A stretch of DNA of 64,000 nt. It comes from Rhodothalassiaceae bacterium. GTDB lineage: Bacteria; Pseudomonadota; Alphaproteobacteria; Sphingomonadales; Rhodothalassiaceae. The notes beneath the pieces were generated by a model that did not search any database, was not told the DNA's origin, and saw only the letters and a program-made list of their open reading frames with translations. The stretch lies in assembly GCA_026004935.1 (NCBI GenBank), contig BPKC01000001.1, forward strand, positions 1-64,000. Reading direction: 5' to 3'. Both the position numbers and the translations under genes were made by a program. Below are positions 3,168 to 55,433 of this stretch, piece after piece (position 1 is the stretch's first letter; the number at the start of each line of letters is the position of its first letter).

Positions 3168-3218
3168 GTCGGCGCGCGCCGGCGCGGCGGGATCGAGACG
3201 GGGATCGTCCGCAGCTTC

Positions 3219-3830: not shown

Positions 3831-4028
3831 GCAAGGGTCGGGCCTGCGGCTCATCCTTGCGGGCGGGGAGGGGAGGAAGCGCCGCGCCGTTTGATCGATG
3901 TCAAAGCGCTGAGCCGGGTCTTCCGGCAGGCTGATGCATGCACGCGAAACGAAAGGGGCCAAGGCGCGTTGATCGTGTAGCGGCCGCGCGGTGGCGATGG
4001 CCGGAAAACGGACGGGAAGGACGGAACG

Positions 4029-4469: not shown

Positions 4470-4612
4470 GGCCGCTCCTGCCGGTGGCCGGCGCGACGCG
4501 CTCGCCCGCTGCGGGATCTTGACAGCCCGGCCCCCGCCCGGCTTTTCCGACGCAGAGGTGGCCGCGGCGGCGGTCGGATGGCGCAAGACGGGCTGAAGGG
4601 AGGCATGCGGAC

Positions 4613-10100: not shown

Positions 10101-10463
10101 CTGGTCGGGGGTCAGCGAGCCGGACAGCGCCGGCAGCTCGCTCAGGAAGTCCGCGAGGTTGTTCTCACCCGACAGCTTCACCGCCTCGCTGTCGATGATG
10201 GTGAGCGGCGCGGGCGACTCGAGCTCGCTGCGGCGGATGCGCGAGCCGGTGACCACGATCTGCTCGATCTCCTCTTCCTCGGCCTTCTTTTTTTCTTCTT
10301 CGGTCTGGGTCTGGGCCTGGGTCTGCGCCTGCGGCGCCGCCTGCAGCTCCGGAATCGCGGCCTCTTCCGCCGCCTGCGCGCCGCTCGCCATCGCGATCAG
10401 CATCGCCGCCGCCGACGTCGCGACCAGCGCCTGGATCTTGCGTGCCTTCAGGATGTCCTGCAT
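7105..10463 (-). pseudogene. TonB-dependent receptor, disrupted by many frameshifts
   Basis: The start at 10463 gives a signal peptide (VATSAAAMLIAMASGAQAAE), a Gln/Glu-rich linker and the plug-domain opening IEQIVVTGSRIRR. Downstream, plug and barrel segments appear in alternating frames: ITGGASAIYGADAVSGVVNF, DLGERTQTVDRQTARIVTGV, YVDPNPNVSNAGFFGGN, GVNNLADNDPPAI, and finally YFVGITAQF with the C-terminal aromatic typical of outer-membrane barrels before the stop at 7105-7107. The shifts are single-base indels every 50-200 bp; I saw no clear in-frame nonsense substitutions. That pattern suits consensus error at least as well as true decay. If intact, it would be an outer-membrane importer of about 1100 residues. 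The ligand is unknown. Confidence 0.85.
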
Positions 10464-10846
10464 CGTCCGGTCCCTCCCTTGGGTTTCCATGAGGATGGCT
10501 TGACCGCCTGCCTCCCGCTTCGTCCGCGGCGCGGAACCCTTGTTCTCGGTACTTTCTTGCGCCGCGCGGCATCGCGCAGGAAGAAGCGGCGGAGCCAGCA
10601 CGATCGCAAAGCCGGCTCGCGCAAAATTTCATCACAGCTTTCGAAAAGATGTAAAGGCGAGTGAGGCGCCCCGCAGCGCCGGCAGGCATCATTTTTTCGC
10701 GAGCTGTGGCAAATCTGCCACACCCGCTGGCAGACAGGAGCCCCGCCGGGCGGGTCTCCGCCTCGCAGCGCCCGACCAGCTCATGCCGGCCGGGCGGGCG
10801 GGTTTGGGCTTGGAAGACTCGGGCGGGAGCGGACGGCGATCCGCCG
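10464..10846 (-). promoter_or_regulatory. Upstream region of TonB receptor 1 with an 18-bp dyad at 10705-10722
   Basis: This 383-bp gene-free stretch lies between the receptor start and the next gene. It contains a perfect inverted repeat, TGTGGCA-AATC-TGCCACA (10705-10722), 242 bp upstream of the receptor ATG. A closely related dyad lies at 15735-15752, 220 bp upstream of the second receptor. The shared sequence and distance suggest a common regulator. No obvious sigma-70 promoter stands out. Confidence 0.5.
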
Positions 10847-28026: not shown

Positions 28027-33289
<5,263 letters not shown>

Positions 33290-33303
<14 letters not shown>

Positions 33304-33880
33304 GGCCTCCATCCACGTGAAAGTTCGACGATGTGCTCTTGCCCATATGTTTATGAGGTCTTGTCTGCCTGTGGCCACGCGTCATAGAAATGACTCGATT
33401 CTTCAGCACGCACATCTTTGAACCGACCACCCGGTAATCGCGAATCGGGTAGCGACGGTATTCGGGGTGGTCCGGGACGGCGTAGGTCATGTGACCATCC
33501 ACGATGGATCCGTTCCAGGCGGCCACGACCGTCTTGTTCCGGGACAATCCCTGAAGCAGACGCAAAGGATCCTGCTTCAGGTGGACATCGAAAAGGATCT
33601 CGATGTTGTCGAGCAGAACCAGCTCGCCTGTGGCTTCACGCACGATTTCGCCCAAGAGCCGTGTTAGCTGCAGAGCCCGTTGGCGTTCGGTCAGGTCCAG
33701 CATCCGGCGAGACAGCTCGAGATTGACGTTGACGAGCGGTGCGGAGGTCGAGGCCGACACCTCCTGCAACGCGGACGTCTTCCCGCTTCCCGCCGGGCCC
33801 ACCATCAGGATCAGGCGGTGAAAGAGCTCGCGAGCCTCGCCGATCTTTCGCAGGACCTGATCCGCCAAGGGCTCCGCCAT
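33290..33880 (-). CDS. brxF: BREX-3-type P-loop protein BrxF
   Basis: A 196-residue small ATPase. The P-loop is LMVGPAGSGKTSALQEVSA (about residues 25-43). NLELSRRMLDLTERQRALQ, VLLDNIEILFDVHLKQDP and LQGLSRNKTVVAAWNGSIVD match BrxF, a hallmark of BREX type 3. The family core ends near residue 150 (PEYRRYPIRDYRVV). The last 45 residues are basic and of unusual composition and run 14 bp into the next gene, as if the normal stop had been lost. It is the first gene of the leftward operon. Its usual partners BrxC and PglZ are absent from the window. Confidence 0.85.
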
Positions 33881-38322: not shown

Positions 38323-39969
38323 CTATGGGCGATAGCGGCGCAGGCGGGTGAAGCGGAAGCTGCGCCGGGTGGATTTCGCCGCCGGACGCATCTGGCCGGC
38401 ATTCTCGTCCAGCGGCTCCACGAGCCGGGGCGTGCTCGCCGCGTAGCAGGGCACGCCCGCCTTCTCGAGCCTGTCGACGAGTGCAAAGGTCAGCGTGAAT
38501 TCCCCCTGAACGAGAGCAGCCGCCGGCGCCAGCGCCGTGGCCGCGGCGGCAAGCTCATCGGCCATGCGCTGGATCCACGTCTCGTCCGCCTCGGCCGGCA
38601 CCTCCGGAAAGGGCAGATCCCGGATCGGCTGCCCGAGCGCCAGAGCCGCGCTCCGCTGATCCTCATTCCATTCCGCGCTCGGATGGTTCGAGATGTTGAG
38701 AAAGACGCCGGAAATCCTGCTGTCCTCCCGAAAGCCGTCAAGAACCCGCCCAAGCCGATCCAGCAGCTGGTCCGGTGCCACCGCGTTCTCGCGGTAGCCG
38801 GCGTGCATGAGGTCGTTCCTCAGATCGCTCGCCTCGTCACGAAACCGCGGGAAGAGGGAACGGGCGATGCCTTCGGCCCTCTCGCGCGCATGGCGATCAA
38901 AGGAAGGCGCACCGGGCCGCGCCGCCTCGGGCCGGGCGACGAGATTGATATAGCCCTCGCGCAGCGTCATGGCGGCCTGCAGGGGACGCTCGAAGCGGCG
39001 GTAGAGCTCCGCCAGCGCGGCCACGCGGCCGGCGTTGCCGGGCCCGGCAAGATCCCGCGGCGAGCCCGCAAGCGGCTCGATCATGGCGACGAGATCCTCC
39101 AGCACGAAGTCGAGCCCCGGCAAATGCGCGCCGGCATGGTCCCGGATGGCGCGGGCCCGTTCGAGCAGCCTGTCGGCGAGAGACGGCGTGCGCCCGTCGC
39201 CCAGCAGGAGCCGCCCCGTGCGCACCGTCGCAAAATGGCCGGAAAACTCCCGCAGGGCCGCTCCGAAGTCCTTGAGTTGCGGGCGCTCGCCCTCGCGTCC
39301 GCCACGCGCCCATTCGGCGCTCAGCCGGTTGCCGACCTCCGTGCCGATGCGCGCGGCGTCCTCGGCGCGGCCCGTCTTGAGAAACAGCCGCAGCGCCTGC
39401 GCCCAGTCCACCATGTCCACGAAATAGGTGAGATCCCAGATCGGGGCTTCGCGGAGGCCCCGAACTTCCTTCCCCGCCTCCCACGCGCCGTAGACGATGC
39501 GGGTCCGGGGCCAGTCCGCCCGCACGGCCTTGAGCAGGCTGATGGCGGCGCCGGCGAAGAAGGGCAGCGAGCGAAAGCCATGGGTGATGTCGATGAATAC
39601 CTGGTCGCCTGGCCCGGGCTTGTCCCTGCGCGGGAAGAGATCCGGGTGGTTCAGCGCATCGACGATGGTGCGGAAGTTGGAGATTACCTCTTCCGCATCT
39701 TCGCCGTTGTGGATCCGGATCCTTTCGGGGGGCGAGAGGTCCGCCTGCGCGAAGGCGTCGAGAAGCCCCTGCCAATGCTTCTTTTCGGCGTCCGGGGTGA
39801 CGAAGACGATGAAACGGTCAGGGACAAGCAGGCGGGCGAGGGCCGCTTGGACGAAGCAGGTTTCGTGGCTCGTGAGGGCGGAATCGGCGAGGAAATGCTG
39901 GTCGCCGTCCCAGACGTAGCGACCGGGCTGGTAGTTGCTGGTACCGAGGAAGGCTGCGATCAGACGCAT
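38323..39969 (-). CDS. CARF-HEPN ribonuclease (Csx1/TIGR02221-like, DxTHG) with a Csx20-like C-terminal domain
   Basis: A 548-residue CRISPR accessory protein. Residues 1-190 are a CARF domain, starting MRLIAAFLGTSNY and bearing the family signature DITHG (127-131, DxTHG) within FIDITHGFRSLPFF. The helical middle carries R384-N-D-L-M-H389, an Rx4H HEPN ribonuclease motif. Residues about 421-515 differ: VFLNISNHPSAEWNEDQ, IRDLPFPEVP, ALVQGEFTLTFALVDRL and GVPCYAAS follow the pattern of stand-alone Csx20 proteins. The family knowledge suggests cyclic tetra-adenylate switches on the RNase; the added domain could degrade the ligand. It stands alone at the left of array 1, transcribed leftward. 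Confidence 0.85.
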   Translation of the reverse strand: MRLIAAFLGTSNYQPGRYVWDGDQHFLADSALTSHETCFVQAALARLLVPDRFIVFVTPDAEKKHWQGLLDAFAQADLSPPERIRIHNGEDAEEVISNFRTIVDALNHPDLFPRRDKPGPGDQVFIDITHGFRSLPFFAGAAISLLKAVRADWPRTRIVYGAWEAGKEVRGLREAPIWDLTYFVDMVDWAQALRLFLKTGRAEDAARIGTEVGNRLSAEWARGGREGERPQLKDFGAALREFSGHFATVRTGRLLLGDGRTPSLADRLLERARAIRDHAGAHLPGLDFVLEDLVAMIEPLAGSPRDLAGPGNAGRVAALAELYRRFERPLQAAMTLREGYINLVARPEAARPGAPSFDRHARERAEGIARSLFPRFRDEASDLRNDLMHAGYRENAVAPDQLLDRLGRVLDGFREDSRISGVFLNISNHPSAEWNEDQRSAALALGQPIRDLPFPEVPAEADETWIQRMADELAAAATALAPAAALVQGEFTLTFALVDRLEKAGVPCYAASTPRLVEPLDENAGQMRPAAKSTRRSFRFTRLRRYRP

Positions 39970-40102: not shown

Positions 40103-41387
40103 CGCTCAATCCCCTCGAGATCGGGGCAGCATTAGGACGGCCGCGATCGTGCGCGCGTGGGCGCGCGACGCGTGTCTCAATCCCCTCGAGATCGGGGCAG
40201 CATTAGGACCGCGGTCACCCGAGGTGGTGGTGCCGTGCACGCGTCTCAATCCCCTCGAGATCGGGGCAGCATTAGGACTCTGCAGTGGGATGATTGTCTG
40301 ATGTCCAGTGTCTCAATCCCCTCGAGATCGGGGCAGCATTAGGACCGGCGGCCGAGATGGAGCGGACGGGCGGATAGGTCTCAATCCCCTCGAGATCGGG
40401 GCAGCATTAGGACATGAGCGCCGGCGTCGCATCGGGAATCGTTCATGGGTCTCAATCCCCTCGAGATCGGGGCAGCATTAGGACCGGCGCGCCTCGACTG
40501 GTGCGCCGAGCAGGAGCCGTCTCAATCCCCTCGAGATCGGGGCAGCATTAGGACAGGATGGTGATCTTGTGCTTCGCCGAGCGGGCAGGTGTCTCAATCC
40601 CCTCGAGATCGGGGCAGCATTAGGACACAAGATTCCGTTGCATTTCAATCCTTGCGAAGGCGTCTCAATCCCCTCGAGATCGGGGCAGCATTAGGACCGA
40701 CGTCGATCTGACCATGCGCCACGTCTATGACGTCTCAATCCCCTCGAGATCGGGGCAGCATTAGGACGCGGAGCGCCCATGAGGAGCCGTGGCGGGCGCT
40801 GCGTCTCAATCCCCTCGAGATCGGGGCAGCATTAGGACGCGGCGAGGATGGCCGTACCGGCGCCGAGAGGCGGTCTCAATCCCCTCGAGATCGGGGCAGC
40901 ATTAGGACGCGGCAGACGGTGACGCAGACAGCGTCACCGTGTCTCAATCCCCTCGAGATCGGGGCAGCATTAGGACGTCGAGCCTGGTTCGAAATTGAAC
41001 CGCTAGGCGTCTCAATCCCCTCGAGATCGGGGCAGCATTAGGACGCGACGTGCGCGCGATGTGATATCGCGCGGCAGTCTCAATCCCCTCGAGATCGGGG
41101 CAGCATTAGGACGAGATGAAGTTCGATAAGCTCACCGCCATGAAGTCTCAATCCCCTCGAGATCGGGGCAGCATTAGGACGGAGCGCATGTCGAGCGGCT
41201 GTGGCGGCTCTGTCTCAATCCCCTCGAGATCGGGGCAGCATTAGGACCAAATCGGTCGCACTAATGAGACTGATCAGGTCGTCTCAATCCCCTCGAGATC
41301 GGGGCAGCATTAGGACCATGTCGAATAGAGGCGGTTTCGCATGGCTTCCCTGTCTCAATCCCCTCGAGATCGGGGCAGCATTAGGAC
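40103..41387 (-). CRISPR. CRISPR array 1: 19 repeats, 18 spacers, transcribed leftward
   Basis: Nineteen 36-bp repeats spaced by 31-36 bp. On the plus strand each reads GTCTCAATCCCC ... GCAGCATTAGGAC; in transcript orientation it begins GTCCTAATGCTGCCCC and ends GGGGATTGAGAC, giving a type III-style 8-base tag ATTGAGAC. Repeat starts: 40103, 40174, 40243, 40310, 40378, 40449, 40519, 40591, 40662, 40732, 40803, 40873, 40941, 41009, 41077, 41145, 41212, 41281, 41352. The leader is on the right. The leader-distal repeat (40103) has two changed bases at its tag end. The spacer at 40485-40518 is nearly identical to one in array 2. Confidence 0.98.
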
Positions 41388-41502
41388 TCTGGCGCCCGAA
41401 AAAATCCTGCAAATCCAGACGATTGCAAAGAGCGATTCCAAAGCCTGGCGGCATCGCCGGACTTATGGAAGAAAGTTTACGCATACGTCAGCTCCTGTCA
41501 AG
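41388..41502 (-). promoter_or_regulatory. Leader and promoter of array 1
   Basis: Read on the minus strand this 115-bp leader starts with TTGACA (41496-41501), then after 16 bp TAAACT. It is about 93 percent identical to the leader of array 2 (53738-53852), with the 60 bp next to the first repeat unchanged. Its upstream end overlaps the last codons of cas6 (stop at 41488-41490), so array transcription starts within the cas operon's final gene. Confidence 0.85.
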
Positions 41503-42723
41503 GCCCGAATGGGATCGTGCCGCATGCAAGGTGCTGCCGGCATGCGGTGGCGGCGGCGCGGCGGCGCGGCCGCCCTCGATGGCGATCCTCATGCGGCCGA
41601 AGCCGAAGCTCGTCTCCTTGCCGACATGCAGCAGCGCGCCGGCCGCAAGCTGGGCGGCGAGATCGGCCGCCTCCGCCGGATGCGGCCGCCAGGTCCAGCG
41701 TCCTCTGATGCCGCCCAGGGTCATCACCCGGCGCTGGCGGCTGGAGCGCCGCTTCCAGTCCGTCCAGACGAGATGCCGCGCCGTCACGGGAATGGCGCCA
41801 GGCGACAGCATGGCATCGCCGAGACGCGCCGGCGCGGCATCCGGATCGCCGCAGGCGGCCTCGAGCTGGCACCGGCGCCGCCAGCAGGCGAGCAGCAGAT
41901 CGGCGGGCGAGAGAGCGTCGGCGTCCAGAATCCGCCCGTGACGCTTCAGGCGCAGCGGCGTGTCGTGGTGGATGGTGAGGACCGGGTCGCCGGTCTCCAG
42001 GCCCCCAAGGCGGCGCGCCAGAAGCCGCGCGAGTTGCGGGCCGTCCAGGATCGCCGCGTCGATGGGCTCCGTCTCGGCCGTCTCGTCAACGAAGTCATAG
42101 AGGGGGATGCAATCCGGCGGACCGGCAGCCGGATCCCGGAAGACGGCGTCGAAGGGGTCTGCGAGGGCATCGACGCGGGCCAGCCGGAAGCGGGCGCGAC
42201 GGCTGCCGAGACCGCGGGCGAGCGCGCGGCGCATGGCCTCGACCACATGCGCGATGCGCCGCGTTGCGGGACCCACAAGCGTGATTCCGAAAACAAGCGA
42301 CCGCCCGGGTGCGATTTCGTGGCGGCCGAAGGGCGGGGGCGCGAAGGCGTAGGGTACCGGCGGCTCGCGCATCCCGCGCTCCGCCAGCTCGTCGGTCGCC
42401 GGCGGCATGAAGATGGCCGGATAGGGGCAACGGGTGAGCAGCGCGCAGCCGTCGCAGGCGGGCATGCCCGTCATGCAGACGAGCCGGCGCAGCGCCCGCC
42501 CGAAGCTGCCGCGCAGCACCGAGCCCGCAAATTCGGGTGTGAGCCAGGGATCCTGCGCCACCGCCTCGAATCTGAGCGCCACAAGGGGAAAGCCGAAGCG
42601 CGCCCAGCGGGCGGCCGCGCGGGAGACGGCGTCTTCCTTCGACACGGCTGCGGGCGCATCGCGATCCCGGCTTCGCGGCCCGTGCGGGGGCGATGCGCGG
42701 GGAATGGTCCGCGACGCGGGCAT
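41488..42723 (-). CDS. cas6: Cas6 pre-crRNA endoribonuclease
   Basis: A 411-residue RAMP protein that cuts the repeat transcripts into crRNAs for the Csm complex. The N-terminal ferredoxin-like fold contains ALRFEAVAQDPWLTPEFAGS and VLRGSFGRALRRLVC, followed by a CxxCxxxxxC-like cluster (MPACDGCALLTRCPYPAIF). The C-terminal half has the diagnostic TLGGIRGRWTWRP and the glycine-rich loop LHVGKETSFGFGRMRI. Histidines that might act in cleavage lie in TIHHDTP. Start 42723 is supported by GAGGGGG 8 bases upstream, 13 bp after csm5. It closes the leftward effector operon and its 3' end overlaps the array 1 leader. Confidence 0.93.
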   Translation of the reverse strand: MPASRTIPRASPPHGPRSRDRDAPAAVSKEDAVSRAAARWARFGFPLVALRFEAVAQDPWLTPEFAGSVLRGSFGRALRRLVCMTGMPACDGCALLTRCPYPAIFMPPATDELAERGMREPPVPYAFAPPPFGRHEIAPGRSLVFGITLVGPATRRIAHVVEAMRRALARGLGSRRARFRLARVDALADPFDAVFRDPAAGPPDCIPLYDFVDETAETEPIDAAILDGPQLARLLARRLGGLETGDPVLTIHHDTPLRLKRHGRILDADALSPADLLLACWRRRCQLEAACGDPDAAPARLGDAMLSPGAIPVTARHLVWTDWKRRSSRQRRVMTLGGIRGRWTWRPHPAEAADLAAQLAAGALLHVGKETSFGFGRMRIAIEGGRAAAPPPPHAGSTLHAARSHSGLDRS

Positions 42724-42736
42724 GGCTGCAGCCCCC

Positions 42737-44335
42737 TCAGCCGCTCCGGCTATTCAGCTTCGCCACCTGCTGCAAAATCTGCTTCCAGCGGTGATCCTTT
42801 TCGGCGCGGTCACCAAGCTTCGGACGCACATGCTCCTCGACGAGGCGCACGAGCAGCGAGCGTTCTTCCGGCGACCAGTTCCGGGCCTGCTTTACGAGAT
42901 TCGAAAGCAGGGCGTGATATCGCTCTGGCAGCTGTGAGGCTATCTGGCCCCTTACCGCTCGCAACAGCGCCGCATTGCGGGAATCCGGTATCTCGACGTC
43001 GATTTCGGCTCGGGTCGCAGGTTCCGCCTCAGGCCGGCTTCCAGAACGAGAAGGCGCACCCTCCGTAGCGCTGCCGGCCCATTTGGACCAGCGCTCACAG
43101 AACGCCTCGAGCTCCGGAAAGGCCGAGGGTTCCTCGCCTTCAGGCGCAAGCTCCACCAGCACCCAGCCGAAAGGCAGGGCGGCGCGGTCGGGGTGTGCGG
43201 TCAGCCCTGCCACGGAAAGCGTCTTCGTGCCAGGGTCGCCAAGCGAAAGGTAGCGGGCGCCCGAGCCCTGCCCAAGTCGCAGCAGAAACGCGCGATGGCC
43301 CCGGCTGCCGTCATCATTGTGTGGCTCGAGCGCGTCCAGAAGTTCGAGCGCCGCATCAAACCATTTCGGGTTTACGTGGGTGTTCACGGTGAGTGAGTTA
43401 CGCTCCTGTGTGAGGACCCGCTTTGCGAGGCGGTTGGCAGTGCCGACCAGATCTTCGAGCTTGGGGGCAAACAGGCTCTTCGGTAGATCATTCCTTCGAC
43501 GGCCGGGCACGGGATGGCCGTCGAGATCCCGCAAAAGGATCGCGCCCTCGAATGGACGCAGCTTGCCGGGCAGGACAACTTCGACCCCTTCGGAGACAAT
43601 GATATCCTTCTTTTTTCCCTTCTTGAGCTCGGGCTTGCGGTACATTCGGACCCGAAAGACCACATGTCCGGCATCCCCCGCGTGGGCGCGGGTCGGGTGG
43701 AAATCGGAAACGCCGAGAAGCCGCAACGGGTCCCACGCCAGATGCGCCCGTTCGCCGCGTTCCAGCAGGTCATTCTCGAGCTTTCGGAATTTCTCTTCTA
43801 CTTTTTCGGGCGGTTTCGTCTCATAGAGTACGGTGCGCCCCTTCCAGCGCGCCAGGCTTCGCAGCACCAGACCGCGCAAGGCACCCTTGACGGAGGTGCC
43901 GGGCAGATAGGGATGGAATCGGAGCGGATCACGCATCATGCGCGCGACATTGACGGTCTTGATGACATCGAAATTGAGCGTCGCGCCCTTGCGCTGGAGA
44001 TCGTGCCACTTCTTTTTCGCTTCCTCACAATTGGCCACGAATCCGTCGCAGACAGGTACGCGATAGCGGGACGTCCGGTGGATCACCTGAGGGGAGAAGC
44101 TGTTCGCGAAGAACAGGTGCGTCGCTGCAATCGCCGCGACGACATCCTCTCCTTCCACGATTTTGCGGAGCCGGTTCCGGAGCTGGCCATTAAAGGGCAG
44201 GTGCAGCGGATCGAACGCCCACAGAGCGCCGTCGTGAACGACGAAATTGGTGGGCTCGTAATCCTCGCCGGTGCCGATGTGGACCGGGGACAGCGGGGTG
44301 ATCCACGCGCGGTAGTGTTCGAGAAAGCGTGTCAT
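42737..44335 (-). CDS. csm5: Csm5, type III-A RAMP protein
   Basis: A 532-residue Csm5 that caps the 3' side of the crRNA in the Csm complex. The N-terminus (YRAWITPLSPVHIGTGEDYE, PTNFVVHDGALWAFDP) and the glycine-loop segment HPYLPGTSVKGALRGLVLRS are diagnostic. A basic stretch (KPELKKGKKKDIIVSEG) may contact RNA. A low-complexity segment near residue 430 and a helical C-terminal extension (ALLSNLVKQARNWSPEERSL) make it longer than typical Csm5 (about 350-400). Its start overlaps the csm4 stop by 4 bp (ATGA), so translation is coupled. Confidence 0.93.
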   Translation of the reverse strand: MTRFLEHYRAWITPLSPVHIGTGEDYEPTNFVVHDGALWAFDPLHLPFNGQLRNRLRKIVEGEDVVAAIAATHLFFANSFSPQVIHRTSRYRVPVCDGFVANCEEAKKKWHDLQRKGATLNFDVIKTVNVARMMRDPLRFHPYLPGTSVKGALRGLVLRSLARWKGRTVLYETKPPEKVEEKFRKLENDLLERGERAHLAWDPLRLLGVSDFHPTRAHAGDAGHVVFRVRMYRKPELKKGKKKDIIVSEGVEVVLPGKLRPFEGAILLRDLDGHPVPGRRRNDLPKSLFAPKLEDLVGTANRLAKRVLTQERNSLTVNTHVNPKWFDAALELLDALEPHNDDGSRGHRAFLLRLGQGSGARYLSLGDPGTKTLSVAGLTAHPDRAALPFGWVLVELAPEGEEPSAFPELEAFCERWSKWAGSATEGAPSRSGSRPEAEPATRAEIDVEIPDSRNAALLRAVRGQIASQLPERYHALLSNLVKQARNWSPEERSLLVRLVEEHVRPKLGDRAEKDHRWKQILQQVAKLNSRSG

Positions 44336-45327
44336 GACACCGTCTCCTCCCGTCGGCTCGCGAGAGGTTCTTCCGACCCCCTGGGCAGACGCACCGGCAC
44401 CACAGGAGCGTAACCCTGGTGGACGGTGGCCGCGAAGGCCTCATCCAAGGATATCGGGCTGGCCGTCCCGCCGAGGCCCCGGCCTGCGAACAACTGCGCC
44501 TCGTCGAAATCCCGGGGGGTCAGCACCGCACCGGTATCAGCCAGCAGGATCGGCCGCTTGAAGGGGTTGGGGCCGACTGCCGCGATGGAGCCGTGCCGAC
44601 CGAAACGGGTGAAGGGCTGATAGAAACAGTCCCGCACCCGCCAGGCACCGCCCTGCGGGGCGCAGGGAGCGAGCGTGAGCCATGAACCGCCGCCTGCCTG
44701 GCCCGCAGGCCTTTCCCCCGCCTGATCAATAACCTGAAACTTGCCGAGCCCCGTGCTTGCGTCCCGGCCATAGCCGATGCGGCCGACGTCCTCAAACAGC
44801 CTGGTCAGATCGTCCTCGCCGAACCGCGTCTCGTCGAAGACGGCATGGATGTCGAAACGCTCCGTTTTCGCCACCCACTCCTTCAGCCCGTAGGGTGCGA
44901 AATCTCCTCCGGTGGTGGCCGTGATCCGCGAGATGCTGTTGTGGAGATGCACGGCTTCCTCCCACGGCTTTTCGGCCCCGCCGTCATCGCCGGCCATGCG
45001 CCGGAAGGTCGCAGCGATGTCGGGGGCATCCGCGACCCATGCCTGCGGGATGAAGGCGCGCCGCTTGAAAGACTTGCGCCGCTCGGGTTCCACCTTGATA
45101 CCGATCCTGGCAAGCGGCACCTGCGGGCGCGGCAGATGGTCAGCGGGAAAACCGTCCGAGACCACAAGGAAGGGCCGGCCCTCGGTGTAGCCATCGAGCC
45201 AAGCTTCAAGCCGCTCAGGACCGAAGCGTTCGCGTGCCGCCCAGCACAGCTGCCCGAACAGGGTGTCACCACGGATCTGGGATCCGAAGGCGGTCAGCGG
45301 GCGGATCGTAAAGCGCATCCAGCGCAT
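44332..45327 (-). CDS. csm4: Csm4, type III-A RAMP protein
   Basis: A 331-residue Cas5-like RAMP that binds the crRNA 5' tag and bridges to Cas10. Diagnostic segments are FTIRPLTAFGSQIRGDTLFG, the insert motif HNSISRITATTGG, and the glycine-rich loop RIGYGRDASTGLGKFQV. The start at 45327 follows GGGAGG. It lies 54 bp downstream of csm3 and overlaps csm5 by 4 bp. Confidence 0.94.
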   Translation of the reverse strand: MRWMRFTIRPLTAFGSQIRGDTLFGQLCWAARERFGPERLEAWLDGYTEGRPFLVVSDGFPADHLPRPQVPLARIGIKVEPERRKSFKRRAFIPQAWVADAPDIAATFRRMAGDDGGAEKPWEEAVHLHNSISRITATTGGDFAPYGLKEWVAKTERFDIHAVFDETRFGEDDLTRLFEDVGRIGYGRDASTGLGKFQVIDQAGERPAGQAGGGSWLTLAPCAPQGGAWRVRDCFYQPFTRFGRHGSIAAVGPNPFKRPILLADTGAVLTPRDFDEAQLFAGRGLGGTASPISLDEAFAATVHQGYAPVVPVRLPRGSEEPLASRREETVS

Positions 45328-45381: not shown

Positions 45382-46098
45382 TTACGCAGCCTTGCCGGCA
45401 TCCTCCACGAAGGGATCCTCGGGCAGCCGAAAGTCCTCGCCATCGAGTTTCAGATCGTCGAACCGGATCTTGCCGTATCCGCGCGAGCCGTTGCCGCCGA
45501 GGGAATCGAGCTCCAGCAGCCTCAGGCCGCGGGCCAGCATGGCGAGCAACTCCTCTCCGTCGCCCTTGAAGCGGCGGATGGTCAGCCGGAACGCGAAGCG
45601 GGCGCCGGCCGGCACGCGCTCCGTCTGGCGGGGGTTCGTCGCCGTGCCCGAGATGCGGTTGATCGAGTTTTCGAACTTGGCTTCGGTCAGTGGCAGGTCC
45701 TTTTCCCGTGCCGCCTTCAGCCAGTCCTCTTCAAGCGGGCAGTCCCAGAAATTGAGACGACAAGGCCCGAAGTCGCCCATCTTGTCGGCGGAGACCTGAT
45801 CGCCACCCGAAATGCCGAACAGTTTGAGGATGGTCTCGGCCGCCCGGGAGTGCGTGCGATCCTTCCACCCCAAGGGCCGGTCGCCTGTGAGCGCACCGGA
45901 CCACCATTCGAGCAGCGAGCGGGTCCGGCCTTTGAGACTCGAGCCCGGGATGTAGGGTTCATCCGTGTGCGGGTGCTTGATCACGGGATTGTCGATGCCG
46001 CCTATGTGCATCTCCGCATCGCCCGCACCGATATGCAGGCCGCTCACCAGCTCGATGGTGCCGGTGAGCCGCGAAATCCTTTCAAGTACCAGTGTCAT
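45382..46098 (-). CDS. csm3: Csm3, backbone RNase of the Csm complex
   Basis: A 238-residue Cas7-type RAMP that forms the filament along the crRNA and cleaves target RNA every six bases. GLHIGAGDAEMHIGGIDNPV contains the family's catalytic aspartate (in GGIDNPV), and YIPGSSLKGRTRSLLEWW is the signature loop. The C-terminus GGNGSRGYGKIRFDDLKLDG completes the fold. The start at 46098 is preferred, because longer forms add residues absent in the family. It begins 4 bp after csm2. Target-RNA cleavage should be active. Confidence 0.95.
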   Translation of the reverse strand: MTLVLERISRLTGTIELVSGLHIGAGDAEMHIGGIDNPVIKHPHTDEPYIPGSSLKGRTRSLLEWWSGALTGDRPLGWKDRTHSRAAETILKLFGISGGDQVSADKMGDFGPCRLNFWDCPLEEDWLKAAREKDLPLTEAKFENSINRISGTATNPRQTERVPAGARFAFRLTIRRFKGDGEELLAMLARGLRLLELDSLGGNGSRGYGKIRFDDLKLDGEDFRLPEDPFVEDAGKAA

Positions 46099-46102
46099 GG
46101 TC

Positions 46103-46525
46103 CTAGCTCCCACCCTTCTCCATTGCCCCGTGGAACCCGGTGAAGGCCTCAAGGAAGATCTTGAAGCGCATCAACCTTTTGCGCTGTTCCTCTGTATCCT
46201 TTCCCGCGCGGATAGCCTGGAGTCCCGCGTTGATCATCTTCTCGTAGATGTCCGTGACATTTTTCCTTCCCTTTGCGTAGGCGACCTTGGCGCGGACCAT
46301 CAGCACGAAGGGAAGGATGTCCGCGAAATCGCGGCGGCGGTCGTTGGCCCGTTCATTCCAAATAGAGATTTCGTTGTAGAAGCGGCGAAGCTGCGTGGAC
46401 TGGTTCTTGCGGCCCTCGCGCTTGCCTTCCTCCGCCACCGCCTTGGCCCATTCCTCCGCTATGTCCGAATAGAGATCAGGATCGCCGCGCGCGATGGCGG
46501 CCTCAAGGCGTTCCACATCTGGCAT
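46103..46525 (-). CDS. csm2: Csm2, small subunit of the Csm complex
   Basis: A 140-residue, highly charged, all-helical protein. STQLRRFYNEISIWNERAND, DFADILPFVLMVRAKVAYAK and LMRFKIFLEAFTGFHGAMEK match Csm2, the small subunit that lines the target RNA opposite Csm3. The start at 46525 follows GAGGAGGAGG. It sits between cas10 (47 bp) and csm3 (4 bp) and confirms subtype III-A rather than III-B. Confidence 0.93.
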   Translation of the reverse strand: MPDVERLEAAIARGDPDLYSDIAEEWAKAVAEEGKREGRKNQSTQLRRFYNEISIWNERANDRRRDFADILPFVLMVRAKVAYAKGRKNVTDIYEKMINAGLQAIRAGKDTEEQRKRLMRFKIFLEAFTGFHGAMEKGGS

Positions 46526-46572: not shown

Positions 46573-49368
46573 TCATCGCCTGTCTCCCTTCCGATAGCTG
46601 CGCCGCTCGTAGAGAAACCGGTAGAGGGGAATGCGGTAGGCCGCGCCCGCCGTCTCGATGCCATCCTCACCGATCTCGGTCACGATCCGCTCATGGATCT
46701 TGTCACCGTGCTCCTCGCGGACATCGTGCGGGAGACGGTCGACGATCTGGCGGCGCGTGCGGTAGCGCAGCAGCGCACGCCACAGCGTGTTCTCGGGCTT
46801 CCTGTCTTCGGCCACGCGCATGTCGACGAAGCGCAGCACGTCATAGAGAAAGCCGCTGCTGGTGATCACGGAAAAGTCGCCTGCAAGCCGGCCCAGGGCC
46901 TCGTAGCGTGAGTGAAGCTCGATGAAACCGGGTCTGCCGCCATCCGCCGTCCAAGGGACCGTCTCCTGAAAGCAGGTGACGGCGTTCTTCCGGGGTGCCT
47001 TTTTGTCCCCGCCGCCATAGCGCTTGGCCTTCTCCTCCAGGGCTTCTTCCGCCATGCGGGCCATCGTGGAAACCGGAACCTGGGGCTTGACCATGACCAT
47101 GGCGAGCGAGAAGTGGATGCCCGGATTGCCAGCGACATGGAGCGCGAACTCCGTTCGCAGCGCGGTGACGAAATCGAGCATCTGCCGCCACGGGCCGATG
47201 AAGAAGAAGTCGTCTCCACCGGCAAAAACGGTGTAGACTTGGGAAAACTTGGATGCGAGCAGCCAAGGCACCTTCAATGTGAAGAAGGCGTTGACCTGAC
47301 GCGAGAGCGCCGCCCACTTGGCGAAGCTTGGATCCGCGAGACCCCTTTCAAACAGCTTTCCGAGATCGTCGATGTCGCCTTTGACCGCCATCAGCGCCGG
47401 CACGCCACGAAGATCGATGCCGCCGTCCTGCACATCCTCACAGACATCCAGGGCTTCAGCTGCCAGCTCCTGAAAGCTGCGCACGCCGCCATCCCGGTCT
47501 CCCGTCTCATCTGGCTCGATCCCGACGGCATCATACAGGGGCTCGTATTCGGCCTTGGCCTTGTCGGTATGGACCGGCACATAGGCGTTGATCGGGCGCC
47601 AGGCGAGCCCGTGCCAAGGCGCGGCATCGCCACGCTCCGGCAGCGACAGGTCCCAGACGCGCGCGGGCAGCGGTGCCGGATCGTCGCGGCGCTCCCTCTC
47701 CTCGTGCTCAAGGGGCACAAAAGCGAGACGGTAGCCGAAGACCGGCACCCTGAGGGCATTCCGCCCCGGGGCGGTCTGGTGCTTCCAGTCGCCCTCCCGC
47801 CACACGCGCAGCCGCAGCGTCTTCTTCTGCGCCAGCACGCGCCCCAGAGTGCTCTGGTCCAATGTGAGGCGGTGGACCGTTGGTTCGTCGTCCTTCTCAT
47901 CCATCCTGACCTGCGCCGGCCAGCGCCCCTGATACCGGCAGGGACCGTTGGGGTATTGCGCATCCATGAATACCGGCGCGGGCGCATGTGCTCCGCATAG
48001 ATCAAGGCGCCGGTGCTTCACCTCATCCAGATCGTCGACGAGCGCCTGCTGGATGGCCTTGAAGCGGTCGGCCTCGATGAAATCATTGGGGGATGCCTCA
48101 CGCATCGCGATGCCGATGCCCGCCTCTCCGAAGCTGTGGGCAAGGAACCACTCATCGATCTCGCGCTGCACCTTGGCGACCGCCTTGCGCGCCTCCTCGG
48201 TATTAGGAGCGACGATCAGGAACTTTCCCGCCGCATTGATCACCTGCGAAGTCGGCGGCAGGTCGAGCGCCTCGAGGATCTTCAGCGCCGCGCATTCGCT
48301 GAGCAGCGACACATAGGCGGACCGGCCGCGCAGGATCTTCGCCGCGCCCCGGTTCGACTCCCCGCCATCGGCGAAGATGAAGCGCTGGATCCCGAAGAGG
48401 TCACCTTGAACGAGAAGGAATTTGGTATGATCCCAATCCTCTCGACCCTTCTGCCTGGCGGCCACGGCTCTCTCGTCATCCTTGCGGTCGTGGTGGTAGC
48501 GCCAGAGCGCGGTGGCCAGCGCCGCCGTCGTGCGCGAATGGTCGTAGAGCGAGACCTCCGGTTTCGTGTTGCCGGCCGTGGCCGAAGGGATCGCGTGGGT
48601 GAACTGGAACCAGACCGTATCGAAATGGTCCAGCCAGAGCGCCCAGTCCGCCCGGTGCGGCGCCGGGATCGCCGCAAGCGCCTCCACGAAGCCCTCCCAC
48701 AGCCGCCGGTATTCGTCCTGGGCCTCCTTGTCCGAGGACAGCTTGACCTCCTTGTCCGGCACCGGCGCAAGCGTCTCCGGGCCCGCGCGCCGCAGAAGAT
48801 GGCGCATGTGGCCGGACTTGCCCGGGGCATTCTCGCCAAGCTTCAGTTCGCCGAAGAGGCTGAGCAGCCGCGTCCGGTAGTGACTGGTGTTCCCTGTCGG
48901 CTCGCGGGCCGCGTTGTATTCCTCCCAGTCGCGACGCTCGAATCCGCTGGCGATCCGGTCGCCGCAGGCGACCATCCACTGCAGGAAGGTGTGCGGCAGA
49001 TGATGGCCGGCCGCCGCATTGACGAGGGAGTCGTCGGGCTCCTGACCGTCCCTGTCCCGTTGCGCAGCCTTCTGACGCGCCGCAAACGGAGAGACGTCAT
49101 GCGTCAGGGACGGCAGATATTCTTCGATCAGGTCGAATGCGGCCGCCGTGTAGGCTGCATGCACATGGGAGAAATAGCCTTTCGCACCGGCGCCCGCCGG
49201 CTGGGGGCAGTAGATCTGGCGATAGGCGTCGAGTCGCGCCTTGCCGACCGGGTCGTCGTCCAGAATGCGCGCCCGCTCGGCGAACTTGCCGAGATCGTGC
49301 ATGAGCGCCGCAAACGCGACCCGCGCAGAAGCCTGGAGGCGCGCCGTCGGTCCCGACTCCCCGCTCAT
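46573..49368 (-). CDS. cas10: Cas10 (Csm1), HD nuclease and cyclic oligoadenylate synthase
   Basis: A 931-residue signature subunit of the type III complex. The N-terminal HD nuclease is intact (ALMHDLGKFAERA, H24-D25, and GHHLPH further on). The second Palm domain has GGDD at 717-720 (YTVFAGGDDFFFIGPW), so synthesis of cyclic oligoadenylates is expected. The first Palm is around VQGDLFGIQRFIF. A helical C-terminus closes the protein. Start 49368 follows AAAGGGGAAAA; longer in-frame starts add unrelated sequence. It is the first gene of the leftward operon and diverges from the Csm6-like gene. At 931 residues it is longer than typical (750-850). Confidence 0.95.
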   Translation of the reverse strand: MSGESGPTARLQASARVAFAALMHDLGKFAERARILDDDPVGKARLDAYRQIYCPQPAGAGAKGYFSHVHAAYTAAAFDLIEEYLPSLTHDVSPFAARQKAAQRDRDGQEPDDSLVNAAAGHHLPHTFLQWMVACGDRIASGFERRDWEEYNAAREPTGNTSHYRTRLLSLFGELKLGENAPGKSGHMRHLLRRAGPETLAPVPDKEVKLSSDKEAQDEYRRLWEGFVEALAAIPAPHRADWALWLDHFDTVWFQFTHAIPSATAGNTKPEVSLYDHSRTTAALATALWRYHHDRKDDERAVAARQKGREDWDHTKFLLVQGDLFGIQRFIFADGGESNRGAAKILRGRSAYVSLLSECAALKILEALDLPPTSQVINAAGKFLIVAPNTEEARKAVAKVQREIDEWFLAHSFGEAGIGIAMREASPNDFIEADRFKAIQQALVDDLDEVKHRRLDLCGAHAPAPVFMDAQYPNGPCRYQGRWPAQVRMDEKDDEPTVHRLTLDQSTLGRVLAQKKTLRLRVWREGDWKHQTAPGRNALRVPVFGYRLAFVPLEHEERERRDDPAPLPARVWDLSLPERGDAAPWHGLAWRPINAYVPVHTDKAKAEYEPLYDAVGIEPDETGDRDGGVRSFQELAAEALDVCEDVQDGGIDLRGVPALMAVKGDIDDLGKLFERGLADPSFAKWAALSRQVNAFFTLKVPWLLASKFSQVYTVFAGGDDFFFIGPWRQMLDFVTALRTEFALHVAGNPGIHFSLAMVMVKPQVPVSTMARMAEEALEEKAKRYGGGDKKAPRKNAVTCFQETVPWTADGGRPGFIELHSRYEALGRLAGDFSVITSSGFLYDVLRFVDMRVAEDRKPENTLWRALLRYRTRRQIVDRLPHDVREEHGDKIHERIVTEIGEDGIETAGAAYRIPLYRFLYERRSYRKGDRR

Positions 49369-49540
49369 CTTCGGATTTTCCCCTTTACCCCTGTCCACAC
49401 CAACCCGGTTGGGTTCCGCCGTCGGTCGTCCTGCCGACGGCTCCACCCTCACGCCGGGGATTGATGCTCCCACCGGAGAGCATGCACAATCATCACAACC
49501 TTGGGAAGACCCTTCAGGCGGCAGGCGAAAAAACGCGATC
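49369..49540. promoter_or_regulatory. Divergent control region between cas10 and the CARF gene
   Basis: These 172 bp must hold both operon promoters. Two dyads stand out: AACCC-GGTT-GGGTT (49402-49415) and CCGTCGG (49419-49425) with CCGACGG (49434-49440). They could be operators or RNA hairpins. No perfect -35/-10 pair is visible. Confidence 0.45.
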
Positions 49541-50629
49541 ATGGTTGCCGGCGGGCCGCAGCTTCAGGATGGACGGGACACGGCGGGCGTCCTGTTGTGC
49601 ACCGTGGGGCTGGCACCCCAGGTGGTCACGGAGACGCTCTATGCGCTGGCCAGACTTGTCAGGCCGCGATTCCGGCCCGCCCGCCTGATCCTGCTCTCGA
49701 CCGCCGCCGGCCTCGAGCTGGCGCGGCGCACGCTGTTCCAGCACCCGCGGGGAGCCGTATTCCGGCTTGCCGCGGACTGGCCTGAGGTGCGCGTGCCGGA
49801 GCCGGAATTCGTCACGCTGGAGGGACCGCGCGGTCCGCTGCCGGACATCCGATCCTCCGAGGAGGCGGCAAGCGCGGCCGACCAGATCTGCTCGCTGCTG
49901 CATCGGCTGACACGAGAGGACATGCCGCCGCTGCATGTCTCGATAGCGGGCGGGCGCAAGACGATGGGCGCGGTCATGGCGGCGGCGATGTCGGTCTATG
50001 CGAGGCGGGACGATGCGATGTCCCACGTGCTCGTGAGTCCGCCCTACGAGAATCGCCCGGATTTCTTCTATCCCGACCCCGCCGACCCCGAATCGCAGCG
50101 CGCCGTCACACTGGCGCGCATTCCCCTTGTCAGCCTGCGTGGGCACCTGCCGCACCACCTGCTGGCGCGCCCGCTTTCCTATGAGGCGCTCGTGCGCGAG
50201 GTGACCGAAGGGCTGTCCCGGCCCCGGCTCGAGATCGATCTCGTTCGCGGTGATCTCAGAGCCGCCGGTGTGCATCTCGGCCTGCCGCCGCTGGAGGCGG
50301 CCTTCTACGCCTGGCTGGCCCTGAACCGCGCGCGGGGTGGCGAGAGCGTGACCGCCCGCGCAGCCGACCCCAGGGAGTTTCTGGACATGTATGACCGCTT
50401 TCTTGCCGCCTCCGGCCGACCGGTTGCGGCCGGAGACCGGGTCCGTCAGGCCCTCAAGGAGGGCTTCGATCCGGCCTGGTTCAACGAGCGCAAATCCCGC
50501 ATCAATGCCGCCTTGCGCCGGCAATTGGGATCCCAGGCCCTGCCGTTCCTCATCATGCGCACGGGCCGCCGGCCGGAATCCGGGCTCGCCATCGCCCTGC
50601 CGCGAGCGCACATCCGCGTGGCCCGTTAG
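49541..50629 (+). CDS. Csm6-type CARF protein (NE0113/TIGR02584 family, ring-nuclease-like)
   Basis: A 362-residue CARF protein. VLLCTVGLAPQVVTETLYAL opens the Rossmann-like fold and HVSIAGGRKTMGAVMAAAMS is the ligand-binding signature. SHVLVSPPYENRPDFFYP is also typical of NE0113-like proteins annotated as Csm6 ring nucleases. The C-terminal 130 residues look like a winged helix (KSRINAALRRQLGSQALPFL) rather than a HEPN RNase: I find no Rx4-6H motif. It could therefore sense and cleave cyclic oligoadenylate, or regulate. The start at 49541 has only a weak ribosome site. It heads the rightward adaptation operon, divergent from cas10. Confidence 0.85.
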   Translation: MVAGGPQLQDGRDTAGVLLCTVGLAPQVVTETLYALARLVRPRFRPARLILLSTAAGLELARRTLFQHPRGAVFRLAADWPEVRVPEPEFVTLEGPRGPLPDIRSSEEAASAADQICSLLHRLTREDMPPLHVSIAGGRKTMGAVMAAAMSVYARRDDAMSHVLVSPPYENRPDFFYPDPADPESQRAVTLARIPLVSLRGHLPHHLLARPLSYEALVREVTEGLSRPRLEIDLVRGDLRAAGVHLGLPPLEAAFYAWLALNRARGGESVTARAADPREFLDMYDRFLAASGRPVAAGDRVRQALKEGFDPAWFNERKSRINAALRRQLGSQALPFLIMRTGRRPESGLAIALPRAHIRVAR

Positions 50630-51230: not shown

Positions 51231-51509
51231 ATGTCCCGAAGCCTTCATCTGCTCTGCTACGACATCAGCGACCCTCGCCGCCTGCGCCAGGTGTTCAGGA
51301 TGGCAAGGGCATACCGGGTCGCGGGCCAGAAATCCGCCTTCGAATGCTGGCTCACCCCGGGCGAGCGGCAGGCGCTGCTGATCGAGCTCGAGCGGATCAT
51401 CGACCGGCGTGTGGACCGCATCCACTGCTTCGCGCTCGACCCGCGGTCGCGCGTACGCTGCTTCGGCCGGGCCAGAAGCTTCACGGGGCCGCCCTTTCTC
51501 GTCGACTGA
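51231..51509 (+). CDS. cas2: Cas2 (first copy)
   Basis: A 92-residue Cas2 with the beta-1 strand and metal-site Asp in LHLLCYDISDPRRLRQVFRM. The following segment AYRVAGQKSAFECWLTPGER and the strand DRIHCFALDPRSRVRCFG complete the ferredoxin-like fold. It is of normal length. It begins 25 bp after the lipoprotein gene and ends 30 bp before cas1. Cas2 bridges two Cas1 dimers during spacer integration. Confidence 0.93.
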   Translation: MSRSLHLLCYDISDPRRLRQVFRMARAYRVAGQKSAFECWLTPGERQALLIELERIIDRRVDRIHCFALDPRSRVRCFGRARSFTGPPFLVD

Positions 51510-51539: not shown

Positions 51540-52529
51540 ATGGCCACGCTCTACATCGACCGCCGCAATATCGAGCTTGCGCTCGATGGGGACACGCTCG
51601 TCTGCCGCGACGGCGAAGGGCGGGCCGCCACCATTCCGCTTGCGCCGGTGGACCGCGTCTATCTGCGCAGCGGGGTGAAGCTCACCTCCGGCCTGCTGGC
51701 CGCCCTCGGCGCACGCGACGTCGCGGTGGTCATTCTGCACGGGAGGAAAGGCGTGCCAGTGCTGTTTCATCCGCGCCCACATCGCGATGCCCGCCTGCGC
51801 TGCGCCCAGTACCGCCTGCTCAACGACGACGCCTTGCGGCTGCAGCTGGCACAGCTCGTCGTCAGCGGCCGGATTGCAAGCCAGATCGAACTGCTCTCTG
51901 AGCTTGCCATCCGCCGGCCCAAACACGCGGCGAAGCTCGGCGCGCGCGTCGAAACGCTGGAAAGCATGCGCCGGCAGGTCTCCCGCAAGACCGACCTCGA
52001 CGCGCTGCGCGGGCTCGAGGGCGCGGCGGCCCACCACTACTTCGCGGCTCTGGCCGAGATCCTCCCCGAGAGCCTGGAGTTTTCCGGCCGCAACCGCCGC
52101 CCGCCCCGCGACCCGGTCAACGCCGCGCTCTCGCTCGGCTACACGCTGCTGCATGCGGAGGCGGTCATCGCCGTCTATGGACATGGCTTCGACCCCTACA
52201 TCGGCTTCTACCACGGCGTCGACTACGGACGGGAATCGCTCGCCTGCGACGTCGTCGAGCCCCTGCGCACCGAGGTGGACGCCTTCGTCCTCGCGCTCTT
52301 CCTGGAACGACGACTGCGGCCCGAACACTTCACGACCGGCCCTCACGGCTGCTTCATGGGCAAGGCCGGCCGCCAGCGCTTCTATCAGGATTTCGAGCGC
52401 GCAGCCGAGCGCATCCGCCGGCGCTTCGACGAGCTGCTGTCCGCGCTCGCCGACACCCTCCTCCAGAACGCGCCGGCTGGCGATGGCGAGCGGCATGATG
52501 GCACCTCCGTCGACGAGCCGGGCTCATGA
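51540..52529 (+). CDS. cas1: Cas1 integrase
   Basis: A 329-residue Cas1, the transesterase that inserts spacers beside the leader. The beta-rich N-terminus starts ATLYIDRRNIELALDGDTL. The catalytic residues are E160 (LRGLEGAAAHHYFAAL), H225 (GFYHGVDYGRESLACDVVEP) and D237/E240 in the same block. Start 51540 follows GGGGAGCAACCC. It is flanked on both sides by cas2 genes. No cas4 or reverse transcriptase fusion is seen. The gene looks intact, so adaptation should be possible. Confidence 0.96.
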   Translation: MATLYIDRRNIELALDGDTLVCRDGEGRAATIPLAPVDRVYLRSGVKLTSGLLAALGARDVAVVILHGRKGVPVLFHPRPHRDARLRCAQYRLLNDDALRLQLAQLVVSGRIASQIELLSELAIRRPKHAAKLGARVETLESMRRQVSRKTDLDALRGLEGAAAHHYFAALAEILPESLEFSGRNRRPPRDPVNAALSLGYTLLHAEAVIAVYGHGFDPYIGFYHGVDYGRESLACDVVEPLRTEVDAFVLALFLERRLRPEHFTTGPHGCFMGKAGRQRFYQDFERAAERIRRRFDELLSALADTLLQNAPAGDGERHDGTSVDEPGS

Positions 52530-52548
52530 CCGTGGAGAGCGGACCGCC

Positions 52549-53013
52549 ATGCCCGACTACGTGATCTGCTACGACATCAGCGATCCGCGCCGGCTCGCCC
52601 GTCTGCACCGCCACTTGCGCCGCCGTGCCCTCGCCATCCAGTACAGCGTGTTCCTGATGCGCTGCGATGCGCGCCGCATCGACGACGAGCTCACCGAGGC
52701 CGCCTCGCTGATCGACCCGCGCGCCGATGATCTGCGCTGCTATCGTCTTCCCGAACGCGGCTTTGCCGCCCGCTTGGGCGCGGCGGTGCTGCCCGAGGGG
52801 ATCCTGCTCACCGACCTGCCCATGCCGCTCGTTGCGCCGGCCGGCTGCAGCCCGGACGACGGTGGTGATGATGGGAGCTCTGCAGCGAACCGGGCCGGTG
52901 ACGGGACCGATCTTGGGGACGCTCCGTCGCGGCCCCGGCGCCAGCTCGCCCGCCGCCGCGGCCGGAGGCGGCCGCGACGCCTGCGCCGGGACTCCTTCCT
53001 TCTCCTGCGGTAG
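52549..53013 (+). CDS. cas2: Cas2 (second copy) with a basic C-terminal tail
   Basis: A 154-residue protein. The first 95 residues are a clear Cas2: MPDYVICYDISDPRRLARLH, LAIQYSVFLMRCDARRIDDE and DDLRCYRLPERGFAARLG. The remaining 60 residues are first acidic (DDGGDDGSS) and then strongly Arg/Pro-rich (RPRRQLARRRGRRRPRRLRR), probably disordered and nucleic-acid binding. The start at 52549 is 19 bp after the cas1 stop. The two Cas2 proteins are only distantly similar, so the copy is not a recent duplication. Confidence 0.9.
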   Translation: MPDYVICYDISDPRRLARLHRHLRRRALAIQYSVFLMRCDARRIDDELTEAASLIDPRADDLRCYRLPERGFAARLGAAVLPEGILLTDLPMPLVAPAGCSPDDGGDDGSSAANRAGDGTDLGDAPSRPRRQLARRRGRRRPRRLRRDSFLLLR

Positions 53014-53852: not shown

Positions 53853-55433
53853 GTCCTAATGCTGCCCCGATCTCGAGGGGATTGAAACGCTTCTTCTAAA
53901 ACCTTTTCATATTGTACCCCCGGTCCTAATGCTGCCCCGATCTCGAGGGGATTGAAACTCAAGTTCGCCCTTAATAATATTAAGGGCCTGTAGTCCTAAT
54001 GCTGCCCCGATCTCGAGGGGATTGAAACGGCTCCTGCTCGGCGCACCAATCGAGGCGCGCCGCGTCCTAATGCTGCCCCGATCTCGAGGGGATTGAAACA
54101 GCGCCTCGCGGACCAGCTCGCGATACGCGCGGAGGTCCTAATGCTGCCCCGATCTCGAGGGGATTGAAACAGTCGGCGCACTCCCGCACGCGCTCCTCGC
54201 ACCAGCGGTCCTAATGCTGCCCCGATCTCGAGGGGATTGAAACCCCCCGGCGCGGCGTTTGCTTCCGCCAAAACCTGGTCCTAATGCTGCCCCGATCTCG
54301 AGGGGATTGAAACTACGCGCCCGGGGCTTTTTTTGCAGAAATGAAACGTCCTAATGCTGCCCCGATCTCGAGGGGATTGAAACGGGGTGAGGTTGATGAG
54401 CTGCATCTGACTCCTCCTGTCCTAATGCTGCCCCGATCTCGAGGGGATTGAAACAATACTGAGCCCAAAACTCTTTGGGCGAATAAGGTCCTAATGCTGC
54501 CCCGATCTCGAGGGGATTGAAACTCGATCGCTCCGAGGGTACGCCGGACCGCCGTGACGTCCTAATGCTGCCCCGATCTCGAGGGGATTGAAACCGGGCG
54601 CGCGCGGTCCATTCCGCGGTGATGACGGTGTCCTAATGCTGCCCCGATCTCGAGGGGATTGAAACACGCTCGGCGCACCAGTCCAGCCGCTCTGGGGGTC
54701 CTAATGCTGCCCCGATCTCGAGGGGATTGAAACATGAGCCAATAATGAAAGTCTCCACCACGGTCCAGCGTCCTAATGCTGCCCCGATCTCGAGGGGATT
54801 GAGACTTCCACCGCGGGTCGAGTGCGTCACTTCCACGCAGTCCTAATGCTGCCCCGATCTCGAGGGGATTGAGACCCCTTCCTTAGGTAATTGTGGTAGT
54901 TAAATTGTCCTAATGCTGCCCCGATCTCGAGGGGATTGAGACTCAATGCGTTCCGCAACTATGAGTGAGCGGCCGGTCCTAATGCTGCCCCGATCTCGAG
55001 GGGATTGAGACCGTGAGCAGGTGCGCAGCGTACCACAGCGCATGCGTCCTAATGCTGCCCCGATCTCGAGGGGATTGAAACATGATGGTCATCATCTTTC
55101 TTCTCCTCGCGCCGGGGTCCTAATGCTGCCCCGATCTCGAGGGGATTGAAACCTATCGGACGGCCCAAGGCCGTCCACGTGGGGCGTCCTAATGCTGCCC
55201 CGATCTCGAGGGGATTGAAACTTTCGCGTTCCGGGCAAGATTCCGGTCACAATAATGTCCTAATGCTGCCCCGATCTCGAGGGGATTGAGACTTAAGAAT
55301 TCGCGGATTTTCTTGTAGTTTATCTCGTCCTAATGCTGCCCCGATCTCGAGGGGATTGAGACGCTGAAAGCTTTCTGAAGCTTTTCAGATTCGACAAGTC
55401 CTAATGCTGCCCCGATCTCGAGGGGATTGAATT
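53853..55433 (+). CRISPR. CRISPR array 2: 23 repeats, 22 spacers, transcribed rightward
   Basis: Twenty-three 36-bp repeats, GTCCTAATGCTGCCCC ... GGGGATTGAAAC, with 31-37 bp spacers. Starts: 53853, 53923, 53993, 54064, 54135, 54208, 54278, 54348, 54419, 54488, 54559, 54630, 54698, 54770, 54840, 54907, 54976, 55046, 55117, 55186, 55257, 55327, 55398. Repeats 14-17, 21 and 22 end in GAGAC like array 1; the others end in GAAAC. The last repeat ends in GAATT, as expected for the leader-distal copy. The ATTGAAAC end gives the usual type III 8-base tag. Confidence 0.98.

Follow-up and report, generated by a model that had tools for sequence, protein, structure and literature searches.

A predicted self-limiting Csx1-Csx20 fusion effector at a type III-A CRISPR locus

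The rate at which cyclic oligoadenylates are removed decides whether cells carrying type III CRISPR systems recover or die from their own alarm. In the Csx1-Crn2 fusion, a cA4-activated RNase and the removal of cA4 are combined in one protein (PMC7293037), and we found published biochemistry for no other Csx1 that is fused to a separate ring nuclease. Csx20, which has a derived Rossmann/CARF-like fold and has previously been described in phages, is as a stand-alone protein a proven cA4 ring nuclease that also degrades cA3 at high enzyme concentration (PMC12409355). The ring-nuclease survey behind these results took in proteins of up to 250 aa (PMC12409355), a ceiling that excludes by design fusions of the size considered here. 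A Csx1-type effector ending in Csx20 is already catalogued by PADLOC as CARF_HEPN_CSX20 (PDLC01843); in the literature that we searched, no published test of such a fusion was found.

Here we describe a member of this architecture encoded in a 64,000-nucleotide stretch of a Rhodothalassiaceae genome (contig BPKC01000001.1; hereafter the window). The domains and their conserved residues, the surrounding csm locus, the Cas10 whose cyclase motif is intact, and another gene in the genome with this architecture together make it probable that the protein is a self-limiting, cA4-activated type III CRISPR effector RNase.

Domain architecture of the fusion protein

The gene specifies, in a single uninterrupted frame, a protein with the domain order CARF, a helical/HTH middle, HEPN and Csx20 (Table 1). 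An earlier note made from the DNA alone had the limits of this frame, which lies on the minus strand, exactly right. Its reading of the N-terminus as a DxTHG-type CARF is borne out by the TIGR02549 match, and the R384-N-D-L-M-H389 motif that it took for the HEPN Rx4H lines up with the Rx4H of four relatives (L008, L009, L013 and L015). The PADLOC fusion model (PDLC01843, CARF2--CARF_HEPN_CSX20) covers nearly the entire protein with 235 bits (residues 4-546 of 548, model positions 5-498 of 498), and the Csx1/Csm6 model PDLC01032 covers residues 4-414 with 197 bits. When the full-length structural model (pLDDT 81.9, poor beyond residue 512) was compared with solved structures, the best match was the Marinitoga Csx1-Crn2 fusion (PDB 8y6z, 8y7g; E 1.2e-15) and the next was Sulfolobus Csx1 (6qzt; E 1.3e-10), in agreement with the CARF-HEPN half being Csx1; a profile built from our own alignment recovers the Csx1-Crn2 entries by sequence too (E 5e-29). 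Judged by these comparisons, the N-terminal part is a Csx1 (TIGR02221-type) CARF-HEPN effector, for which cA4-activated RNA cleavage is predicted.

Table 1. Features of the fusion gene, its type III-A locus and the second type III operon of the genome
Feature	Position	Strand	Basis or remark
Csx1-Csx20 fusion gene	38323..39969	-	ATG at 39969, stop at 38323; 548 aa
CARF domain, residues 1-180	39430..39969	-	profiles; strand/helix Rossmann order in model
DITHG motif, D127-I-T-H-G131	39577..39591	-	TIGR02549 (DxTHG) 38 bits, cut-off 21
HEPN RNase region, about residues 310-417	38719..39042	-	profiles, alignment, model
HEPN Rx4H, R384-N-D-L-M-H389	38803..38820	-	sequence; alignment with relatives
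Csx20 ring-nuclease-type domain, residues 421-546	38332..38709	-	PADLOC profile; models
Csx20 motif I, N425-I-S-N-H429	38683..38697	-	alignment; role of H429 by analogy with Csx15
R515	38425..38427	-	present in 12 of 12 aligned Csx20 sequences
Additional loop between last Csx20 strands, about 9 residues (about 519-528)	38386..38415	-	alignment; low model confidence there
CRISPR array 1, 19 repeats	40103..41390	- (repeat sense)	between cas6 and fusion gene
Probable Cas6	41488..42723	-	position and reading; no NCBIfam match
Csm5	42737..44335	-	NCBIfam 33 bits, slightly under cut-off 38.3
Csm4	44332..45327	-	profile match
Csm3	45382..46101	-	profile match
Csm2	46103..46525	-	profile match
Cas10/Csm1	46573..49365	-	HD (H23-D24), cyclase GGDD (716-719)
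NE0113-family CARF protein (CARF5)	49538..50629	+	143 bits, cut-off 80.65; NCBI name: ring nuclease
Type III-B operon with second fusion	L026, own genome C1:2238000-2257999		Cmr genes

The isolated tail matches the PADLOC Csx20 model PDLC01397 over model positions 2-114 of 114 (E 7.4e-22, residues 423-546). The Csx20 identity that the earlier note had given to residues 421-515 thus stands, and its C-terminal boundary moves to residue 546, since residues 516-546 carry the conserved C-terminal strands and the invariant arginine R544. A chance likeness to Csx20 is ruled out by this E-value and by the presence of the same tail on the second copy in the genome. In the full-length model, about 3 residues separate the last HEPN helix (399-417) from strand 1 of the Csx20 domain. 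The NCBIfam Csx20 model (NF040559) matches the fusion at E 1.8e-5 with 25.1 bits, under its cut-off of 70, a labelling threshold below which the plain viral Csx20 of locus L016 likewise falls (44.3); TIGR02221 (Csx1) gives 62.5 bits against a naming cut-off of 76.25. Hence, automatic annotation probably names neither half by these two models. A Pfam search of the protein returned no match, including none to a C-terminal Crn2 (DUF1874) domain. Modeled in isolation with AlphaFold2, the Csx20 domain shows alternating strands and helices (pLDDT 83.6), and its Foldseek matches to solved structures are weak (best E 0.008, TM about 0.4) and rich in CARF and SAVED proteins, namely Cam1, Csm6, Can2, Cap5, Cap4 and Sso2081.

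The type III-A locus and a second fusion gene in the same genome

By its gene content, the locus housing the fusion gene is a type III-A (Csm) CRISPR locus: a probable cas6 and csm5-csm4-csm3-csm2-cas10 lie upstream on the same strand, and the fusion gene begins about 130 nt after the final repeat of array 1. The HD and GGDD motifs of Cas10 make it plausible that this protein has a nuclease domain and synthesises cyclic oligoadenylate. Divergent from cas10 lies the gene of an NE0113-family protein, in which the CARF domain extends up to about residue 185, and which we regard as a putative second ring nuclease of the locus.

Several further features accompany this region. The two CRISPR arrays (40103-41390, minus; 53853-55433, plus) have the same repeat in opposite orientation and lie on either side of the csm, cas1 and cas2 genes. 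Two Cas2-like frames (51231-51509 and about 52530-52850, plus strand), both with the motif CYDISDPRRL, flank one Cas1 gene (51540-52529). Beside the CRISPR locus there is a further defence pair on the minus strand, made up of a DruE-like large helicase (28027-33378, 319 bits) and an adjoining BrxF homologue (33290-33880, 315 bits).

A second Csx1-Csx20 fusion (L002), 42% identical to the window protein over residues 8-546, is encoded elsewhere in the same genome, where it adjoins Cmr1, Cas10/Cmr2 with a GGDD motif, Cmr3, Cmr4 and a Cmr6-like protein (the last one by reading) in a type III-B operon. No CRISPR array occurs within the 20 kb read there, suggesting that this operon may use crRNAs from elsewhere. 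With one fusion at the csm locus and one at the cmr locus, both type III systems found come with a fusion of their own.

Conservation and divergence of the Csx20 domain

The earlier note relied on Csx20 being a proposed ring nuclease, and stand-alone Csx20 has now been shown to cleave cA4 (PMC12409355). In an alignment with 11 other Csx20 sequences, 28 positions are conserved in 70% or more of those 11, and the window domain keeps 24 of these positions, including N425, S427, N428, H429, Q438, D451, E490, T513, R515, K532 and R544. Among these, H429 is proposed to be the ligand-contacting or catalytic histidine, because the motif-I histidine of Csx15 is the catalytic or main binding residue of that protein (PMC13148439).

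The domain is also the more diverged of the two Csx20 halves in this genome. Its identity to the viral Csx20 of L016 is 50% versus 60% for the sister copy, and to the Rhodothermus Csx20 33% versus 43%; to other cellular and viral Csx20s it is mostly 3-10 points less identical than the sister's. The Csx1 halves of the two proteins are about equally diverged. The loop inserted between the last strands is missing from the sister copy and from the viral Csx20s, and FREY is replaced by LRRY. Taken together with the NE0113-family protein, these features make slow turnover or cA4 sequestration possible, and a redundant or decayed Csx20 is conceivable given that second protein. In its full form, this alternative has the window domain lower free cA4 by binding it like a sponge, or cleave it very slowly, with the NE0113-family protein responsible for real turnover; a Csx15 orthologue that acts as a non-enzymatic cA4 sponge provides a precedent (PMC13148439). 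We consider it unlikely: the precedent is a Csx15 rather than a Csx20, LRRY is common to the less diverged sister copy, and nearly all of the conserved polar residues are kept, H429 and R515 among them.

Considerably less probable again is the idea that the Csx20 domain is not a nuclease and serves as an additional ligand sensor, possibly of a ring of different size, through which the HEPN RNase is adjusted; we know of no sensor-only Csx20, which counts against it. In its favor are the CARF-like fold of Csx20 and the presence of the sensors Cam1, Can2 and Cap5 among the weak matches of the model, but Csx20 assayed elsewhere degrades cA4 and, at high enzyme concentration, cA3 (PMC12409355). Least of all do we credit the view that the Csx1 and Csx20 parts are produced as separate proteins, or that the fusion is an artefact of assembly or prediction, since, despite the existence of unfused csx1/csx20 pairs on Rhodothermus and Runella plasmids, there is one open frame without a stop, the architecture recurs elsewhere in this genome at a diverged second locus, and PADLOC has a public profile for it.

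Relatives, proposed action and comparison with known systems

In a tree of the Csx1 half (12 sequences), the window protein, the second copy and the proteins of L008 and L009 form one clade with support of 100/100, inside which the branching order lacks resolution. The L009 protein (9001-10545; Albidovulum MAG) is a Csx1 ending in Csx16 (101 bits, cut-off 46) and matches the PADLOC model CARF_HEPN_CSX16 at 485 bits, and the L008 protein (3162-4796; Planctomycetota MAG) is a Csx1 ending in Csx15 (NCBIfam 163 bits, cut-off 35), with no Csx15 fusion model among its PADLOC matches. Both tails occupy the C-terminal position held by Csx20 in the window protein. On the Rhodothermus and Runella plasmids, csx20 comes after csx1 as a separate gene, the two overlapping by 20 nt in different frames, and a small frameshift in such an overlapping pair could yield a fusion. 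Stand-alone Csx20s are also encoded on viral contigs (L016:6043-6393, L017:5995-6363, L022:5986-6381 and L023:6001-6357), that of L016 adjoining genes for the terminase large subunit and SSB, and are possible anti-CRISPR ring nucleases. Viral locus L025 proved to be a false match in a terminase frame, reference phage records gave no Csx20 match, and the Csx20 tree mostly lacked resolution.

Among 198 other genomes of the host order, one of the same genus included, none has a match; vertical inheritance in the host lineage is thus not seen, which argues for horizontal gain. Sampling of 385 genomes of the class and 398 of the phylum turned up Csx20 in the window's own genome and in no other. It occurs in 2 of 199 genomes of a sample centred on a Planctomycetota MAG, in both as a short open frame (147 and 160 aa), and in none of the genomes of two other phylum samples (0/195 and 0/201); these samples are small, none is centred on Bacteroidota, and they give no fusion frequency. 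A single pattern scan across genome contigs, made with CARF patterns instead of Csx20 ones, yielded no other Csx20 fusion. We tentatively raise the possibility, to which we give somewhat less than even weight on a small sample of related Csx1 proteins, that one Csx1 clade acts as a socket which has repeatedly received Csx15, Csx16 and Csx20 modules from a virus-shared pool at one and the same C-terminal site, so that length-capped surveys would undercount Csx1 loci with their own off-switch.

As to the action of the window protein, we envisage that the Csm complex binds target RNA and Cas10 then makes cyclic oligoadenylate, most likely cA4. As in the Csx1 family, cA4 would bind the CARF dimer and switch on the HEPN RNase. 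By analogy with stand-alone Csx20 and Csx1-Crn2, the C-terminal Csx20 of each subunit would compete for the same cA4 and cut it to linear products; as the ligand is consumed, RNase activity would decay, with RNase and off-switch fixed at 1:1. The logic put forward in the earlier note, of an RNase switched on by its ligand and also removing it, is one already known for Csx1-Crn2 (PMC7293037), and that analogy supports its extension to the present protein. Weighing against this self-limiting reading are the NCBIfam Csx20 score below its cut-off, the diverged Csx20 half with its loop and LRRY, and the NE0113-family protein.

A covalent fusion of effector and ring nuclease sets the ratio of the two activities and so would provide a measurable timer. 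The two fusions of this genome, in which the Csx20 half is ordinary in one copy and more diverged in the other, would reveal whether the logic holds generally and can be tuned. The fusion further suggests that ring-nuclease surveys limited to 250 aa overlook built-in off-switches. Added interest lies in the paired copies and in the exchange of one ring-nuclease tail for another among related Csx1 proteins, as judged from a small sample.

Compared with known systems, the window protein has the domain order of PADLOC CARF_HEPN_CSX20 along its whole length and without difference. Any novelty implied for the architecture is accordingly rejected in view of this dedicated model, and the protein, by its domains, adds a member to a catalogued architecture. 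With the homologous stand-alone Csx20 it has in common the motif-I NISNH, GE and R515; there Csx20 is separate, whereas here it is built into the effector. The Csx1-Csx16 (PDLC01842; L009) and Csx1-Csx15 (L008) proteins are the nearest relatives of its Csx1 half among those sampled and also end in a ring-nuclease-type domain, but their tails belong to other ring-nuclease families than Csx20. The Marinitoga Csx1-Crn2 fusion likewise joins a TIGR02221-type Csx1 to a C-terminal cA4 ring nuclease, the latter being predicted in the window protein, and differs in that its ring nuclease is Crn2, of the DUF1874 fold, instead of Csx20, the two proteins being about 17% identical.
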